From: Bacteroidota bacterium
GTDB lineage: Bacteria; Bacteroidota; Ignavibacteria; UBA10030; UBA8401
Length of the DNA: 64,000 nt
Direction: 5' to 3'
Assembly: GCA_035506275.1 (NCBI GenBank)
Contig: DATJPT010000008.1
Span: forward strand, 1-64,000
In this document: piece by piece, positions 1-56,371 of the stretch
How positions within the stretch are numbered: position 1 is the first letter of the stretch
Layout of the letters: every line of letters begins with the position of its first letter
Made by a program: the position numbers and the translations under genes
Notes under the pieces: generated by a model
What the model saw: the letters and a program-made list of their open reading frames with translations, nothing else
What the model was told of the DNA's origin: nothing
Databases searched by the model: none

Positions 1-517
1 GCGCACAGACCGTACGATGAGTCTCGAACCCTGCAAACTGCGTTTTGCAGAAAAAACCATTGGAACCGAAGATTCCAGCGGATCCTTTGACGGTATAGTA
101 GTTGGCCAGTTCGATGGTCTTAAGGTCGAAACTGAATTCCAGCGTTTCACAGCGGGGATGGATATTGAGGCAGATTCCTTTTCGGGTGGTATCTATGAAG
201 AAGGTTGGATTCCTCCCTTTTCGCATCGAGCGGCGGACTTCACCGGTGTACTTCGTGTCAAAGAGGCGAAAATATCCGTTGCAGTCTCTTGATACCATCT
301 CGGGGAAAAATTCAATACCGTCTTTTTGCATGTCCTCCCGTTTCGGAATATACCCGTAACCGTATCCCCATGACGGATGGAACCTCCCTTTCAGTTTTTC
401 GTCGACGAGCCAGTGTTCCCATGATCGCTGCTCTGCGAAATATTTGAGCGTATCGATGAGATTATCGACTGCTTCCAAGCTTTTTGCTTTGCCACTGTAA
501 TGAATAGTGATGCCCAT
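1..517 (-). CDS. Hypothetical protein, C-terminus beyond left edge
   Basis: An open frame runs from ATG at 517 leftwards off the window (172 codons seen, no stop). An AGGAGG ribosome site at 526-531 lies 8 bases before the start, so the start is well supported. The protein begins MGITIHYSGKAKSLEA and is rich in aromatic residues (WGYGYGYIPKRE near residue 50). No signal peptide or membrane segment is visible. It resembles a family of uncharacterised soluble proteins with an MGITIHYSG-type start, but I cannot assign a function. It is transcribed in the same direction as the radical SAM operon, separated from it by about 310 bases. Its base composition is closer to the integrase and core genes than to the AT-rich operon. 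Confidence 0.75.
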   Translation of the reverse strand, partial: MGITIHYSGKAKSLEAVDNLIDTLKYFAEQRSWEHWLVDEKLKGRFHPSWGYGYGYIPKREDMQKDGIEFFPEMVSRDCNGYFRLFDTKYTGEVRRSMRKGRNPTFFIDTTRKGICLNIHPRCETLEFSFDLKTIELANYYTVKGSAGIFGSNGFFCKTQFAGFETHRTVCA

Positions 518-827: not shown

Positions 828-1577
828 CTAAAGCAATTCTTTGAATTCATCGCCCTTTACATAACTGAAGAGGCAAGATACATTGTTGAAAATTATCTTA
901 TTAACATTTATGGAGTTTTGAAGATTATGACCCTTTGAAAAAAGAAGATATAACAGGATCGAAGACAGACTATGTCTCAAATTTAATACCGTTAATTTCT
1001 CCTTTATCAATTCGGACCTGCTGGTATAAAAGTCGTTTTGCATTCTAGTCATAGATCCTTTCAGTTCAGGCTGAGTCACATTAAGTCGCCATTCCTGACA
1101 CACATCGACTAAGCGATGGCTTTTGCCTCTTATAGGTAGATCATACCTTGTATCAAATACCTCAATTTCTCCTTCTCTCCTCTTCCAATCTTCATGTCTA
1201 GATCTCCACTTAGAGCGAATTGATGCTAAGTGAGTGAGTTTCAAATTCTTGCGGTATGATAATAACACAGCCAAGTCGCTCGAAAATTGATGCCCGACGA
1301 AAATGTTATTCGGTGAAGTCAAAAAAATCTGCGCACATTTATTGGCTGCTTTGCACAAGAATTCAGCTTCACTTACCTTGTCTATGTAATACGAAAAAAA
1401 ACCGAAATCTAATTTAGTATCTGGGAAACTTAGATCCTCTCTATCGTCGACATATACAAAGGAGAAACAGAACGGCTTGTTGCCATGTTTCGCATGATAG
1501 TTTTTCGTCCACTCAACATCAAAACCAACGATGTATCTTTTTGCAGAGACGTTAATTTCCTTTTTGTAAATTTTCAT
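828..1577 (-). CDS. DEDD/DnaQ-like 3'-5' exonuclease-fold protein
   Basis: 249 residues, probably an RNase H-fold exonuclease. Visible motifs: ExoI-type GFDVEW (D20, E22); an ExoII-type stretch GHQFSSDL (D101); then DTRYDL (D142, D146) followed by SHRLVDVCQEW (D158), the usual layout before a family's third motif. A clear YxxxD or HxxxD ExoIII motif is not seen; the matching helix reads LNLRHSLSS (about 198-206), so activity is uncertain. It is the last gene of a three-gene operon, 13 bases after the radical SAM gene, and is AT-rich like its neighbours. No signal peptide or membrane segment. Members of this fold trim DNA or RNA 3' ends. A role in acting on invading nucleic acid is inference from the mobile context only. 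Confidence 0.7.
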   Translation of the reverse strand: MKIYKKEINVSAKRYIVGFDVEWTKNYHAKHGNKPFCFSFVYVDDREDLSFPDTKLDFGFFSYYIDKVSEAEFLCKAANKCAQIFLTSPNNIFVGHQFSSDLAVLLSYRKNLKLTHLASIRSKWRSRHEDWKRREGEIEVFDTRYDLPIRGKSHRLVDVCQEWRLNVTQPELKGSMTRMQNDFYTSRSELIKEKLTVLNLRHSLSSILLYLLFSKGHNLQNSINVNKIIFNNVSCLFSYVKGDEFKELL

Positions 1578-1590
1578 ACCAATGGATAAG

Positions 1591-2559
1591 TTATTGGACA
1601 GATCTTATGCTCTTACCAAGATATTTTGTCAAATGGTTTTTCTTAAATCTATATTTCTTCCAGATTTCTTGGATCGTCATAAACTTGATATTTCCAATAT
1701 GCTCCACTTTGTCTTCCGCGTCGTAAACTGGCCATGCAAACGTTTCTCCGTTTGGATAGATCAATATGGAATAACCCTCATTCTCGCGCGTCCATGTTGT
1801 CATTCTAAGTGAAGGGCGCCATTCAAAAGTTTTTCGGAGGTTTAGCAAATCGCTGAATAGGTTTCCTGCCTCTTCTTCGGATATAAACTCATTCTCAGGC
1901 AATAATTTCCCGTTCCCCTTGCGTATTGGCAATATGAGCTTCAGCTTCCCAGCTTGCAAAATATCCGCAATTTGAAATGTAAATGGAAGAGCCTGCATAA
2001 TACTGCGCATCACCACAGCCGTAAATGAAATCGGGATTCCGACATCTTTAAATTTATATACCCCCCTAAGAATGTTGTCAAAATCGCCTCTAACTCGATT
2101 AGTCGTAGCTCTAGGTCCTTCCAGTCCAATGTTGACAAACGATATCTTGCCCATAAGCTCATGAGCAATTTTTGAAGCCGGGGTAGAGTTGGTAGGCAAT
2201 CCAACTATATGGTCTTTAGAGAACATCCCAGCAATATCCACAAAGTCTTTTCTCAGTAATGGCTCCCCTCCAGACAGAAAGACGCGCTGGACTCCCTGAA
2301 GGTTTCCACAGATTACGTCTAACTCAAGCAATGTCGGATCATCAATTTGAACTGTTTCGCTACAGAATGAGCAATTAAAATTACACTTGCGAGTGATTTG
2401 TAGAATCACTGACAACGGCGCATTTATCTCATTTACCGCTTTTTCTAAATCGAAATCATCTAGCAACTCGAAATGGTGATGTTTGTCGTCATAAATAATA
2501 GGCATTGAGTTCGACGCCACGCAAACATTTTTCCGGTCCGCTTTTCCCTCTTGCATCAT
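1591..2559 (-). CDS. Radical SAM enzyme with cysteine-free SPASM-like tail
   Basis: 322 residues. The radical SAM cluster motif CNFNCSFC (C59, C63, C66; CxxxCxxC) should bind the [4Fe-4S] cluster, and SGGEPLL (96-102) is the SAM-binding GGE motif. About 46 residues precede the barrel. The C-terminus reads like the end of a SPASM or twitch region (YPNGETFAWPVYD, then HIGNIKFMTIQEIWKKYR) but has no auxiliary-cluster cysteines. It resembles MoaA/PqqE-type enzymes more than viperin, whose NxHxT..CNYxCxFC signature is not matched. It lies 18 bases after the kinase gene and 13 bases before the exonuclease-like gene, so the three are almost surely co-transcribed. The substrate is unknown. The neighbouring kinase makes a nucleoside or nucleotide substrate an attractive inference. 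Confidence 0.85.
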   Translation of the reverse strand: MMQEGKADRKNVCVASNSMPIIYDDKHHHFELLDDFDLEKAVNEINAPLSVILQITRKCNFNCSFCSETVQIDDPTLLELDVICGNLQGVQRVFLSGGEPLLRKDFVDIAGMFSKDHIVGLPTNSTPASKIAHELMGKISFVNIGLEGPRATTNRVRGDFDNILRGVYKFKDVGIPISFTAVVMRSIMQALPFTFQIADILQAGKLKLILPIRKGNGKLLPENEFISEEEAGNLFSDLLNLRKTFEWRPSLRMTTWTRENEGYSILIYPNGETFAWPVYDAEDKVEHIGNIKFMTIQEIWKKYRFKKNHLTKYLGKSIRSVQ

Positions 2560-2577
2560 TTTGCCATCCCCTTCAGT

Positions 2578-3219
2578 TCATCGCGAATCTATTAGATTTT
2601 CCAATAGAACGCCAAGCTTGAAAGTGGATCTATCTATTGAGCCATATTCATTTTCAAAGACGATCAATTGTGTGCTTCCTTTTTTGCATTCAACTTCAGC
2701 TGCTTTTAGCAAAACGTTTTGGAATAAAAAAGCATCGGGAAATACTCTTTCGAGATCTAATTGACGTTTTCTTGACATAATCAGTTTTTTCCAAGATATG
2801 AATGTTGCTTCAAAGAAAACCATGATATCTGCGGTCGGCAGATTGATATTGTCAGCCAACGCCATTTGATTTGTCAACTGAAAATATGGATCGTTCGGGT
2901 GCATCAGCCATTCCATGTTTGGTTCTTTGATATAATGAGTCATCAATTTGTCATAATAAGAATCTACCAAGACAATTTGTCCTTGCTGACGTAAAGAATC
3001 AGCAATAAAAAGATTTGGCACCCGCATTGCACGAAACCAAGTCAATGCCGTAAACGCGCCGGACGCCTCCTGCATCTTAACGGCCAAAGGCCAATCTGAT
3101 TCCTCTGGCTCACATAGATGTTTCCAATTTTTCTGATTACCTAATGCCTTAAAAATTGTGGATTTTCCTACCCCCGGCAGACCAACTCCGGCCACCATCA
3201 GACCTCGCTTAATCGACAT
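2578..3219 (-). CDS. P-loop kinase resembling deoxynucleoside kinases
   Basis: 213 residues. The Walker A motif GLPGVGKST (13-21) lies at the very N-terminus, as in dNK/thymidylate-kinase-like enzymes. VDSYYDKLM fits the position of the dNK DRS/DRY motif. A basic SRKRQLDLE segment in the C-terminal half fits the arginine-rich lid (RxRxxE). It differs strongly from the housekeeping dNK at 55712-56371. It is first in the operon with the radical SAM and exonuclease-like genes and divergent from the integrase. The proposed role is phosphorylation of a nucleoside or of a radical-SAM product. Nucleotide-binding P-loop kinases of other specificity cannot be excluded. No strong ribosome site precedes the ATG at 3219. 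Confidence 0.7.
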   Translation of the reverse strand: MSIKRGLMVAGVGLPGVGKSTIFKALGNQKNWKHLCEPEESDWPLAVKMQEASGAFTALTWFRAMRVPNLFIADSLRQQGQIVLVDSYYDKLMTHYIKEPNMEWLMHPNDPYFQLTNQMALADNINLPTADIMVFFEATFISWKKLIMSRKRQLDLERVFPDAFLFQNVLLKAAEVECKKGSTQLIVFENEYGSIDRSTFKLGVLLENLIDSR

Positions 3220-3365: not shown

Positions 3366-4865
3366 GTGGAAAAAAACAAATTAATAGGCATATGGATCCG
3401 CGTTTCTACGGAAGACCAGGCGAGAGGGGAAAGTCCGGAACATCACGAAAAGCGGGCGCGATATTACGCCGAATCCAAGGGATGGACCGTCAAAGAGGTT
3501 TACCACCTCGAAGCGGTGAGCGGAAAATCGGTGATGGATCATCCCGAAACGAAGCGGATGCTCGCGGATATCCACAAAGGGCATATCACCGGCATCATTT
3601 TCTCGAAACTCGCACGCCTCGCAAGAAACACGAAAGAGCTGCTGGAGTTCGCGGATATCTTCCGTTCCGACAATGCCGACCTTATATCGCTCCAGGAAGC
3701 GATTGACACCTCTAGCCCGGCCGGCCGCCTCTTCTACACTATGATCGCCGCCATGGCCCAATGGGAGCGGGAAGAGATTGCCGACCGCGTGGCCGCCTCC
3801 GTTCCGGTCCGGGCAAAACTGGGAAAATCTCTCGGAGGGGCGGCACCTTTTGGTTACCAATGGATTGACAAGAAACTTGTTCCCGACGTTAAGGAAGCAC
3901 CAGTCCGGAAGCTCATCTACGATCTTTTCCTCGAACACAAGCGAAAGAAAGCCGTCGCCCGCATTCTCAATACGTCCGGCTACCGTACCCGGAATGGATC
4001 GAAATTCAGCGATACCACGATCACGAGGCTTCTCCAGGACCCGAGCGCCAAGGGGCTCCGGCGAGCAAACTACACCAAAAGCCTGGGAGACAAAAAGCAC
4101 TGGGAGCTGAAACCATCCACCGACTGGGTATTCACCGAGATTGAACCGATTGTTTCGGAAGAGACATGGAATCATTGCAACAAGATTCTCGATGAACAGC
4201 ACAAGAACCACAAAGTGCCAGCCCGTCCCGTCGTCAATCTCTTTTCGGGAGTCGTCGTCTGCAATTGTGGAAGCAAGATGTACGTCCCCTCGAATTCTCC
4301 AAAATACACCTGCCCCAAATGTCGGAACAAGATAGGAGTCGAGGATCTTGAATCGATTTTCCACGAACAGCTCAAGAACTTCCTGTTCTCTCCCACGGAG
4401 ATTGAGAATTACCTCAAGGGAGCCGACCGGACAATCCATGAAAAGGAAGAGCTTGTTGAGGGACTCTATCAGCAGCAGAAAGACATCAAACAGGAGATGG
4501 ATAAGATGATGAGGCTCTATCTTGACGGGGAGATGCCCAAAGAAGGCTTTGGAAGGCACTACAAGCCCCTAGAAGACCGGCTAAAGCAGGTCGAGGCTCA
4601 GATACCCGAAGCCCAGGGAGAGATCGATTTCCTGAAGATTCAGCTCATGTCCGGCGACCAGATCATCAGCGAAGCCCGAGACCTGCACAGCCGTTGGACA
4701 ACCCTCGCCGCGGACGAAAAGCGCCGGATCGCCGAGACCATAACGGAACAGATCATCATTGGTCATGACGACGTTTCCATCAATCTTTGCTATCTCCCCT
4801 CATCCCCTGAAATGGCGGCAACTGGGCAACGCAACCCCAGGGATTCATCGCACACACAAGCATAA
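3366..4865 (+). CDS. Large serine recombinase (integrase)
   Basis: 499 residues with the full large-serine-integrase layout. The resolvase catalytic domain (about 5-145) has the nucleophile in RVSTEDQ (S14) and the helix [14 protein letters not shown] recombinase domain (about 155-260) follows, then a zinc ribbon with C299, C301, C316 and C319, then a charged coiled coil (about 350-430). It starts with GTG, with GGAG 10 bases upstream. Such enzymes integrate and excise elements at short att sites. Here the 3' end runs straight into the disrupted comM gene, so this is very likely the enzyme that inserted the element there. The last eight or so codons and the stop lie in comM-derived sequence, so the C-terminus would differ in the excised form. 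Confidence 0.95.
4836..4850. other. Attachment-site junction inside comM
   Basis: Read on the minus strand, the ComM sequence is conserved up to [10 protein letters not shown]. After that the family expects CPCG, but the frame reads WGCVAQLPP and soon stops. The switch lies at about 4838-4842, next to the 3' end of the serine integrase. This is where an attL/attR-type core of a serine-integrase element is expected. The shared core probably includes AATCCCTG (minus strand). The partner junction lies outside the window to the left, so the exact crossover dinucleotide cannot be read. Confidence 0.75.
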
Positions 4866-5892
4866 AATTCGCGGGAAAATCGAGCGACATCTTCGACCGG
4901 CTAATCGTCACTCTCCCATCCTCGAGCGGCTGGCGCATCACTTCAAGAACATTCCTTGCGAATTCCGGAAGTTCGTCCAGGAAAAGAACGCCGTGATGTG
5001 AAAGCGATATTTCGCCCGGGCGGGGAATCGTACCTCCCCCGACAAGTGCGCTGTCGGAGATCGTGTGATGAGGGGATCGGAACGGCCGTGTTGCCACCAA
5101 CGCAGAATTGGGGGGGAGCAATCCGGCGACAGAATGGATCTTGGTCGTCTCAATACTTTCGTCGAACGTCAGCGGCGGAAGAATGCTTGGCAGCCGCCGG
5201 GCGAGCATGGTCTTCCCCGAGCCGGGGGGACCGATCATAATGATATTGTGTCCGCCGGCCGCGGCGACTTCCAAGGCGCGCTTCACATTTTCCTGCCCTT
5301 TCACGTCAGCAAAATCGAGCGGATATTTTTGCGAGACGGCGAAGACTTCGTCGACATTGATTTTGAGCGGCTGGATCGCCAGCTCGTCGTTTAGAAGTGA
5401 AACGGTCTCGGAAAGATTCTCAACGCCGAAGACGTCGAGCCCTTCAACCATTGCCGCTTCTCGGGCGTTCTCCTTAGGAAGGATGATCCCGCAAAATCCT
5501 TTCTTCTTGATTTCCACCGAGATCGGAAGAATCCCATGAACCGGACGAAGGCTCCCATCAAGCGCAAGTTCGCCGAGAATGACATATTTTTTCAACAGAT
5601 CCTCACGCGCTTGACCGCTCGAAGCAAGCATCCCCACCGCGATAGGCAGGTCGTAGGATGAACCTTCTTTCTTCACATCCGCCGGCGCTAAATTGATCGT
5701 AATACGTTTGTTCGGGTATTCGAGCCCCGAATTTTTTATTGCCGTGGCGACACGCTCCCGGCTTTCTTTGACGGCGTTGTCCGGCAACCCGACCATGAAG
5801 AAGTTCGGGATGGTATTCTCGATGTTGGTCTCTATTTCAATGAGGTAGGCGTTGATACCGTAGGTTGCACTGCTGAGAACGACTGATAACAT
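4840..5892 (-). pseudogene. comM: comM/YifB-like AAA+ ATPase, 3' part lost by insertion
   Basis: The N-terminal Lon-protease-like domain (about 20-125, [19 protein letters not shown]) and the Mg-chelatase-type AAA+ core with Walker [10 protein letters not shown] (221-229) and Walker B-like [11 protein letters not shown] (301-311) are intact. Homology ends at residue 351 (AMNP). The family is about 500 residues long, so roughly 150 residues are missing. The reading frame continues 19 codons into the element and stops at 4780. ComM is a helicase that aids branch migration of incoming DNA in natural transformation and is a known insertion target for genomic islands. The remainder of the gene should be found at the other end of the element. 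Confidence 0.93.
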
Positions 5893-16614: not shown

Positions 16615-17442
16615 ATGAACGTATTGCCAATCGAAAAGAAAGCCCTCGTTTTAACCCTCCTCACAGAAGGTCAATCAATCCGAGCTACTCAGCGAATTAC
16701 AGGCGTAGATCAAAATACCATTATGAGCTTGCTCGTCAAAGCCGGAGCGAAAGCCCAAGAAATTCTCGACCGCGAAATGGTTAATATCAAATCCAATCAC
16801 GTAGAAGTTGACGAAATCTGGGGATACGTTGGGAAAAAACAAAAGCAATTAAAGCCCTTCGATAGCGAAGAGTTGGGCGACCAATATATTTTTGTTGCTA
16901 TGGATGCGGAAACTAAACTTGTCCCCGCGTTCTTAGTGGGGAAGCGCAATCAGATTAATTGCGTTGCGCTTATGAAAGAATTGCAGTATAGAATTTCTAC
17001 ACGGTTTCAGTTATCAACGGATTCTTTTGCTCCGTACTTCAATGCCGTAGATTCTGTTTTCGGTACCGATGTTGACTATGGACAAATTCACAAAGAGTAC
17101 CGAGAAGATAACAAGGGCGAAAGAAGATATTCCCCCGCTCAGATCGTGAGGGTAATAATAAATCCGTTAATCGGAAATCCTGATAGAAAACATATTTCTA
17201 CCAGTAAAATCGAAAGACAGAACTTGACTATGAGGATGGGCATGAGAAGGCTGACGCGGCTCACTAATGCGTTTAGTAAGAAATTAGAGAACCTTAAAGC
17301 GGCAACGGCATTGCATTTCTACTTTTACAATTTTATGAGGATTCATCAATCATTGAGGGTTACGCCTGCTATGGAGGCGAAGATCACAAACAGAATTTGG
17401 GGATGGGATGACTTACTTTTGGATATAGCAAAGGCGGCGTGA
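16615..17442 (+). CDS. IS1-family transposase
   Basis: 275 residues in one frame. An N-terminal helix-turn-helix (about 20-42, GQSIRATQRITGVDQNTI) is followed by an IS1-type DDE core: D66 in HVEVDEIWGYVG, D136 in LSTDSFAPYF and E200 in STSKIERQNLTMRMGMRRLTR. The C-terminal HFYFYNFMRIHQSLRVTPAMEA is typical of this group. No frameshift is needed, unlike classical IS1 InsAB'. AAAGGAG lies 6 bases before the ATG. It is the only transposase in the element and its likely mobiliser. Confidence 0.95.
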   Translation: MNVLPIEKKALVLTLLTEGQSIRATQRITGVDQNTIMSLLVKAGAKAQEILDREMVNIKSNHVEVDEIWGYVGKKQKQLKPFDSEELGDQYIFVAMDAETKLVPAFLVGKRNQINCVALMKELQYRISTRFQLSTDSFAPYFNAVDSVFGTDVDYGQIHKEYREDNKGERRYSPAQIVRVIINPLIGNPDRKHISTSKIERQNLTMRMGMRRLTRLTNAFSKKLENLKAATALHFYFYNFMRIHQSLRVTPAMEAKITNRIWGWDDLLLDIAKAA

Positions 17443-55711: not shown

Positions 55712-56371
55712 TTACACTTTCTTCGAGCGCGGATTATAGTATTCCACGGCTGCTCTGTTCGGGCGGAGAATTTCGTTGTAGAGTTCTTCAAAATCGGACT
55801 GGTCTCCGACAAAATCGATCTCAGTGGCATTAACGATCAAAAGCGGAGCGGTCTTATACCGGAAGAAAAAATAATTATACGCTTCGTTCAGATCTTTGAT
55901 GTAATCTTCCGAAATGTTCTCCTCTATCTTCCTGCCGCGGTCCTTAATATTTGACATCAGCCGATCGACGCTGGATTGAAGGTAGACGACCAAATCAGGG
56001 ACCGGGATATTTTTTTCGATCGAGCCGACCAGCGTCTCATACAATTTCAATTCATCGTCGCGCAGGTTCAGATACGCGAAGATCTTGTCCTTCTCGAAAA
56101 TGTAATCGGTCACCAGGACGTTCTGAAAGAGGTCGGCCTGAAACAACGCCTGCTGCTGCTTGTACCGGCTCAATAAAAAGAAAATCTGAGTCTGAAAGGC
56201 ATAGTGCACGGAGTCCTCATAAAAACGTTCGAGGAACGGATTCTCTTCAAACTGCTCAAGGACAAGGCGGCCGTTGAGGCGTTCGGAGATCTTTCGTGCG
56301 AGCGAGGTCTTTCCCGCCCCGATGACTCCTTCTATGGCGATATAGCGAACATCAGCGTGTCGAACCGGCAA
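55712..56371 (-). CDS. Deoxynucleoside kinase
   Basis: 219 residues. Walker A is IEGVIGAGKTS; EQFEENPFLERFYED holds the substrate-binding glutamate region, TDYIFEKDKIFA fits the DRS-like motif, and the lid NIKDRGRKIEENIS has the RGRxxE arginines. It salvages deoxynucleosides (dGK/dAK type in related genomes). It is only 3 bases after folK, in a run of folate, tRNA-synthetase and nucleotide genes. Confidence 0.93.
   Translation of the reverse strand: MPVRHADVRYIAIEGVIGAGKTSLARKISERLNGRLVLEQFEENPFLERFYEDSVHYAFQTQIFFLLSRYKQQQALFQADLFQNVLVTDYIFEKDKIFAYLNLRDDELKLYETLVGSIEKNIPVPDLVVYLQSSVDRLMSNIKDRGRKIEENISEDYIKDLNEAYNYFFFRYKTAPLLIVNATEIDFVGDQSDFEELYNEILRPNRAAVEYYNPRSKKV

Follow-up and report, generated by a model that had tools for sequence, protein, structure and literature searches.

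The window, by which we mean the whole stretch of 64,000 nt analysed here (contig DATJPT010000008.1 of a Bacteroidota bacterium), begins within an integrative element. Since window position 1 is also the first base of the contig, the element is visible only from comM up to there. The following features lie in this part:

2..517, minus strand: partial ORF at the contig start, on the strand of the operon, without a Pfam match; probably the gene following the operon in the element
828..1577, minus strand: DnaQ/PolB-type 3'-5' exonuclease-fold protein, 249 aa, with ExoI D20-x-E22, ExoII D101 and, at ExoIII, L198-x3-H202
1591..2559, minus strand: radical SAM enzyme, 322 aa, with one Cx3Cx2C motif and a viperin-like fold, without SPASM cysteines
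2578..3219, minus strand: P-loop kinase-like protein, 213 aa, dNK/TMPK-like by motif; first gene of the operon
3366..4865, plus strand: large serine integrase of 499 aa, pointing away from the operon, CcrB-like (Pfam Resolvase, 4.2e-30; Recombinase, 7e-20)
4780..5892, minus strand: 5' part of comM, interrupted by the element within the Mg_chelatase domain (domain profile)

An earlier note on this DNA had described three tightly packed minus-strand genes, AT-rich compared with the core genes. This is confirmed by the ORF coordinates, with gaps of 13 bases between the exonuclease and radical SAM genes and 18 bases between the radical SAM and kinase genes, and by their GC content of 37–41% versus about 50%. 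The exact values are 0.367, 0.413 and 0.402 for the ORFs 828–1577, 1591–2559 and 2578–3219, compared to 0.495 for positions 5000–64000 of the window and 0.531 for the serine integrase gene. Thus, the base composition of the cargo differs from that of the integrase as well as from that of the core. The placement of the operon beside a serine integrase, in an element inserted into comM, also held, judged by the resolvase- and recombinase-family matches and by the broken comM ORF, which ends at position 162 of the 207 positions of the Mg_chelatase profile. The C-terminal domain of ComM (PF13335) is absent from the whole 20-contig assembly in a profile search. Within the portion of the element left by the contig end, we saw neither a NUDIX gene nor a paralogue of the exonuclease. 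Farther into the window, an IS-type transposase-like ORF (16615–17442) was noticed by eye in an AT-rich patch at about 15–18 kb.

Relatives of the module in bacteria and phages

Single-protein searches with the exonuclease and the kinase yielded no relatives in plasmids and viral contigs, and the exonuclease yielded none in 395 genomes of the phylum. The first relative of the module came from a tblastn search of phages and is located in Streptomyces phage Gilgamesh. Its gene 39 encodes a radical SAM enzyme 51% identical to that of the window and gene 41 an exonuclease-fold protein (33% identical), with one gene (40) between them, followed by the thymidylate-kinase-like gene 42 and the MutT-like gene 43. 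This is the same module, but it consists of five genes rather than three, and the annotation is restricted to hypothetical proteins, thymidylate kinase and MutT-like. With alignments seeded by the Gilgamesh relatives, viral contigs and genome loci were added, raising the family to at least 33 other loci with a radical SAM enzyme 51–65% identical to that of the window: at least 27 genome loci (L023–L049, a lower bound), five viral contigs (L013–L016 and L020/L022) and phage Gilgamesh. The genome loci belong to Dictyobacter (Chloroflexota, two loci), Micromonosporaceae, Frankiaceae, Streptomyces, Kitasatospora and metagenome-assembled Actinobacteria. A clade-specific scan of viral sequences with the radical SAM enzymes of the window and of Dictyobacter gave no matches. 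The weak viral loci L003–L008 and L017–L019 as well as the loci L050–L077 encode generic radical SAM enzymes and were excluded from the family.

In Actinobacteria and phages the full gene order is radical SAM enzyme, gene40-like, exonuclease, kinase and NUDIX. At most loci adjacent reading frames abut or overlap (for instance, −8 between the radical SAM gene and gene40 at many of them), some of the gene starts being placed by homology. Among the matches listed, a module gene is adjacent to the radical SAM gene in 33 out of 33 homologues; the exonuclease is found in 24 of these loci, the kinase and NUDIX each in about 30. Mostly single and unlinked homologues, the outcome which the earlier note had named as speaking against its proposal, were therefore not found. 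Furthermore, the distance matrices of the proteins correlate with r between 0.66 and 0.94 (all permutation p about 0.0005), for instance with 0.86 for radical SAM enzyme and exonuclease and 0.94 for exonuclease and kinase. Since the linkage of radical SAM enzyme and exonuclease is kept across three phyla and in phages, it is more than chance, and the view of the window genes (kinase, radical SAM enzyme and exonuclease) as a functional unit on mobile DNA is borne out by this linkage.

The composition of the module varies. In eight loci (Frankiaceae, L048 and L049) the exonuclease is not detectable, while gene40, kinase and NUDIX are retained. The NUDIX gene is 4.5 kb off in L036 and on the opposite strand in L045 and L048; in L049, 1.4 kb separate gene40 from a radical SAM ORF which looks incomplete, and the module of L044 runs to the contig edge. 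In Dictyobacter the module is reduced to radical SAM enzyme and exonuclease, and both copies look decayed: in L025 the radical SAM enzyme is without its N-terminus and has an in-frame stop upstream, and in L023 the exonuclease ORF is shortened to 179 aa. The latter locus, from Dictyobacter arantiisoli, also has a HAD-like domain in frame with the radical SAM enzyme (L023:2–1279), cut by the contig start.

The distribution of the module is rare, patchy and linked. The radical SAM enzyme occurs in 4 of 296 Streptomyces genomes, in 2 of 47 genomes of the Dictyobacter class and in 1 of 395 genomes sampled from the phylum of the window, this one being the window's own genome. The exonuclease is likewise present in 4 of the 296 Streptomyces genomes, three of which are also carriers of the radical SAM enzyme. 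In the fourth radical SAM genome a contig end cuts the module, with the start of the exonuclease still visible; the fourth exonuclease genome has exonuclease, kinase and NUDIX, but no radical SAM enzyme or gene40. This partial module, at L089:8365–10258, is the one exception to the linkage and may be either a product of decay or an immunity-only remnant.

A location in defence islands, which the earlier note had raised, is not borne out. Integrases, Replic_Relax and replication proteins of the nicking type are encoded in the flanks of 18 loci, whereas only 2 of 139 flanking proteins gave strong PADLOC defence matches (Cas3 beside one locus, a JetD-like protein in one). The flanks thus indicate mobility, not defence islands. 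In Micromonospora thermarum the Cas3 gene (L024:4144–6417) is about 3.5 kb upstream of the module. The module proteins themselves have weak matches in PADLOC 2023 (pVip, 2.7e-10; PDC-M51B, 3.8e-4; PDC-S07, by the NUDIX protein, 3.2e-9). No module-specific family was found in NCBIfam, PADLOC or PHROG, and the publications searched do not describe the module, although absence there is no proof.

The radical SAM enzyme and its partners

The window enzyme matches Pfam PF04055 (E 8.7e-16) and, by its sequence, certainly contains a radical SAM domain. In the family alignment C59, C63 and C66 are the only conserved cysteines and form a single Cx3Cx2C motif. An AlphaFold2 model (pLDDT 82.7, pTM 0.85) was compared to known structures with VIA-align. 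The fold comparison with viperin, suggested earlier, gave viperins with CTP or UTP as the best matches (9dfn and 6q2q; Z 23.0, 254–255 aligned residues, 2.5 Å), tied with SuiB (22.7) and followed by SkfB (21.9), PqqE (20.3), BlsE and MoaA (both 19.2). Because SuiB is tied with viperin, the fold alone neither distinguishes a viperin nor proves a nucleotide substrate.

Family tests lead away from viperin proper. For the viperin model of NCBIfam (NF038283) the window enzyme scores 27.8 bits, below the curated cut-off of 180. The viperin signature, which we take to be N-hydrophobic-H-x4-C-x3-C-x2-C-F, reads N-Y-H-x4-C...C-F in mouse viperin (PDB 5vsl, 288 residues aligned) and is not present in the aligned module family. 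Its members instead have I/V-x-Q-x4-C-x3-C-x2-C-S-E, in which Q54 and S67-E68 do not vary across 27 members. The lack of a viperin signature, already remarked upon from the window sequence, is hence a property of the whole family, in which Q and CSE replace it. Judged by the model, the enzyme has a viperin-like scaffold that extends to the C-terminal part, yet it is not a viperin by these family tests. The likeness to viperin (RSAD2) with CMPK2 and to the prokaryotic pVips comprises the single Cx3Cx2C motif, the fold over 254 residues, the linkage to a TMPK-like kinase in Actinobacteria and the mobile setting. In contrast, viperin modules are not defined by an exonuclease-fold partner, a stripped paralogue and a NUDIX protein, all of which are conserved here.

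The matches to SuiB, SkfB and PqqE could also point to modification of a peptide or protein, as in the maturation of RiPPs, with the nucleotide enzymes serving a separate role. A sequence-profile search of the PDB indeed ranks SkfB and PqqE, together with MoaA, highest. However, the Pfam SPASM domain reaches 15.2 bits, short of its cut-off of 21.5, and no auxiliary-cluster (SPASM/twitch) cysteines were found, as no cysteine beyond the three is conserved. Among ORFs of at least 70 aa, none next to the module genes or between them is a conserved candidate for a small precursor, and every conserved partner has a nucleotide- or nucleic-acid-type fold. We therefore regard this explanation as highly improbable.

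The blasticidin enzyme BlsE among the structural matches fits another explanation, in which the module makes a small nucleoside-like secondary metabolite or signal unconnected to phage. The carriers are mostly Actinobacteria rich in secondary metabolites, and in two of them a second cluster with radical SAM enzyme, kinase, QueD, QueE and phosphoribosyltransferase adjoins the module. Yet the surroundings of the module hold no conserved gene for transport, resistance or tailoring, distant carriers share no flanks, and the module exists also in phages and in the unrelated host of the window, making a metabolite of this kind unlikely.

The exonuclease protein of the window has neither a Pfam match nor a sequence match in the PDB, and its fold was established by structure prediction (pLDDT 88.6, pTM 0.90). 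Foldseek matched this model to RNase T (E 1.3e-3), DNA polymerase delta, a Vibrio phage family A polymerase and TREX, none below 0.001, and VIA to the proofreading domains of B-family polymerases (Z 13.6–15.0). The exonuclease fold proposed earlier, and its comparison with DnaQ, are thus in agreement with the model. As in RNase T, TREX1, Pol II and KOD, the order of elements is ExoI DxE, ExoII D and ExoIII, and D20, E22 and D101 are invariant in the family. The ExoIII element differs. In place of Y-x3-D or H-x4-D the window protein has L198-x3-H202; the fourth metal-binding Asp is replaced by a His in every member (invariant in 18 and in 23 aligned sequences), and an invariant DTR follows the strand preceding this element. 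With His as the fourth ligand throughout, nuclease activity may be absent, although this His could still bind metal. Some families hold a DnaQ-like fold without activity, for example DNA polymerase alpha. By hhalign (E 8.7e-18) the gene40 product is a paralogue of the exonuclease that has diverged from it; the DxE and His motifs are missing.

The pairing of radical SAM enzyme and nucleotide kinase recurs in Actinobacteria, where the linked kinases are thymidylate-kinase-like. They match Thymidylate_kin and AAA_28 and share P-loop and EP motif with the TMPK/deoxynucleoside kinase superfamily, but stay below all equivalog cut-offs. The window kinase is a separate branch: it has a clear P-loop, scores 14.3 bits (E 0.034) with Pfam dNK versus a cut-off of 27, exceeds the cut-off of no family and is a single sequence without relatives. 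It was not found in six module-carrier genomes, and the 395 genomes of the phylum contain no relative beyond one weak match, a housekeeping dNK beside glnS. In hhalign comparisons with the actinobacterial kinase family the P-loop alone aligns. Therefore, the equivalence of both kinases is a functional guess, and since homology of the window kinase is not demonstrable, what other loci share with the three-gene set is the kinds of enzyme, rather than common ancestry of all three genes. The window itself has a deoxynucleoside-kinase-like gene near glnS (55712–56371), apparently a housekeeping copy, whose relative in another genome of the same order is the only other match to the window kinase.

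A putative route to a modified nucleotide

Human viperin is encoded beside CMPK2, an NMP kinase with the alias TMPK2, which supplies CTP for the synthesis of ddhCTP (PMC10058120), and the nsp14 exonuclease of SARS-CoV-2 can excise ddhCMP from RNA 3' ends (PMC9415739). By analogy with this pair and this excision we propose a scheme for kinase, radical SAM enzyme and exonuclease/NUDIX. The kinase would supply or complete the phosphorylation of a nucleotide, which the viperin-fold enzyme would turn into a modified or chain-terminating form via 5'-deoxyadenosyl radical chemistry. This analogue may then poison an invading phage or a competing element at the level of its replication or transcription. 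The exonuclease-fold protein would strip it from 3' ends, clear it from the nucleotide pool or sense it, and so protect the carrier; in Actinobacteria it would act beside its catalytically stripped paralogue and the NUDIX hydrolase.

Our preferred, though tentative, reading is a horizontally transferred nucleotide-chemistry module, most likely a viperin/CMPK2-like factory for a modified nucleotide with added partners for immunity or control. What was observed are the folds, the motifs, the conservation of the linkage and the location on mobile DNA and in phages. The linkage, the matrix correlations, the viperin-like fold, the TMPK-like kinase, the exonuclease fold and the rarity and mobility of the module argue for such a factory. 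It is weakened by the missing viperin motif and the low NCBIfam score, the tie with SuiB, the His of ExoIII, the few flanking defence genes, the homology gap of the window kinase, the lack of NUDIX and paralogue in the window and the Streptomyces module without radical SAM enzyme. What the module acts on and what it makes, which way the kinase step runs, the role in immunity and the use against viruses are inferred. The module probably makes an unusual nucleotide, and perhaps this is used as an antiviral weapon.

The phage carriers suggest one more explanation, by which a modified (deoxy)nucleotide is built into the DNA of the phage or element to evade restriction. The radical SAM enzyme would modify a dNMP, the TMPK-like kinase phosphorylate it, the NUDIX protein clear the competing normal dNTP and the exonuclease-fold pair edit or protect ends. 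Temperate Streptomyces phages do carry the full cassette, and thymidylate kinase and NUDIX are typical enzymes of the nucleotide pool. But the carriers identified here are for the most part bacterial contigs, and not every one of these can be recognised as a prophage; the module is also without its own DNA polymerase or a base-modification enzyme acting on DNA, so that we consider this explanation unlikely. DNA base modification is, like secondary metabolism and RiPP maturation, ranked below the modified-nucleotide factory.

The factory may be specified further. It is possible, albeit doubtful, that the module is a mobile, phage-borne and self-protected weapon used between phages, elements and hosts, combining a viperin-fold radical SAM enzyme of new signature, a nucleotide analogue, an exonuclease pair (one with DED-His, one stripped) for immunity or sensing, a kinase and a NUDIX protein. 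The component folds are known, and there is a substantial chance of new chemistry. To our knowledge, natural chain terminators made from nucleotides in response to viruses are so far exemplified mainly by viperins. If the proposal is true, a second radical SAM lineage with the viperin fold and another binding signature, stably associated with a kinase, a NUDIX protein and a proofreading-type fold and present in bacteria as well as in their phages, would be a new natural source of nucleotide analogues, and would let one ask how a producer keeps its polymerases safe from the chain terminator it makes.

The second cluster adjoining the module lies at L030:1–5915 in Frankia nepalensis and at L048:1426–9668 in a metagenome-assembled actinobacterium. 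It is built from the enzyme classes also present in the module and consists of a further radical SAM enzyme (pVip model, E 7e-13), a TMPK-like kinase, QueD, QueE, a phosphoribosyltransferase and PIG-L, in L048 additionally of a DnaQ-type exonuclease, NUDIX, WbqC and an aminotransferase. Its radical SAM enzyme is present in 4 of 13 module carriers.
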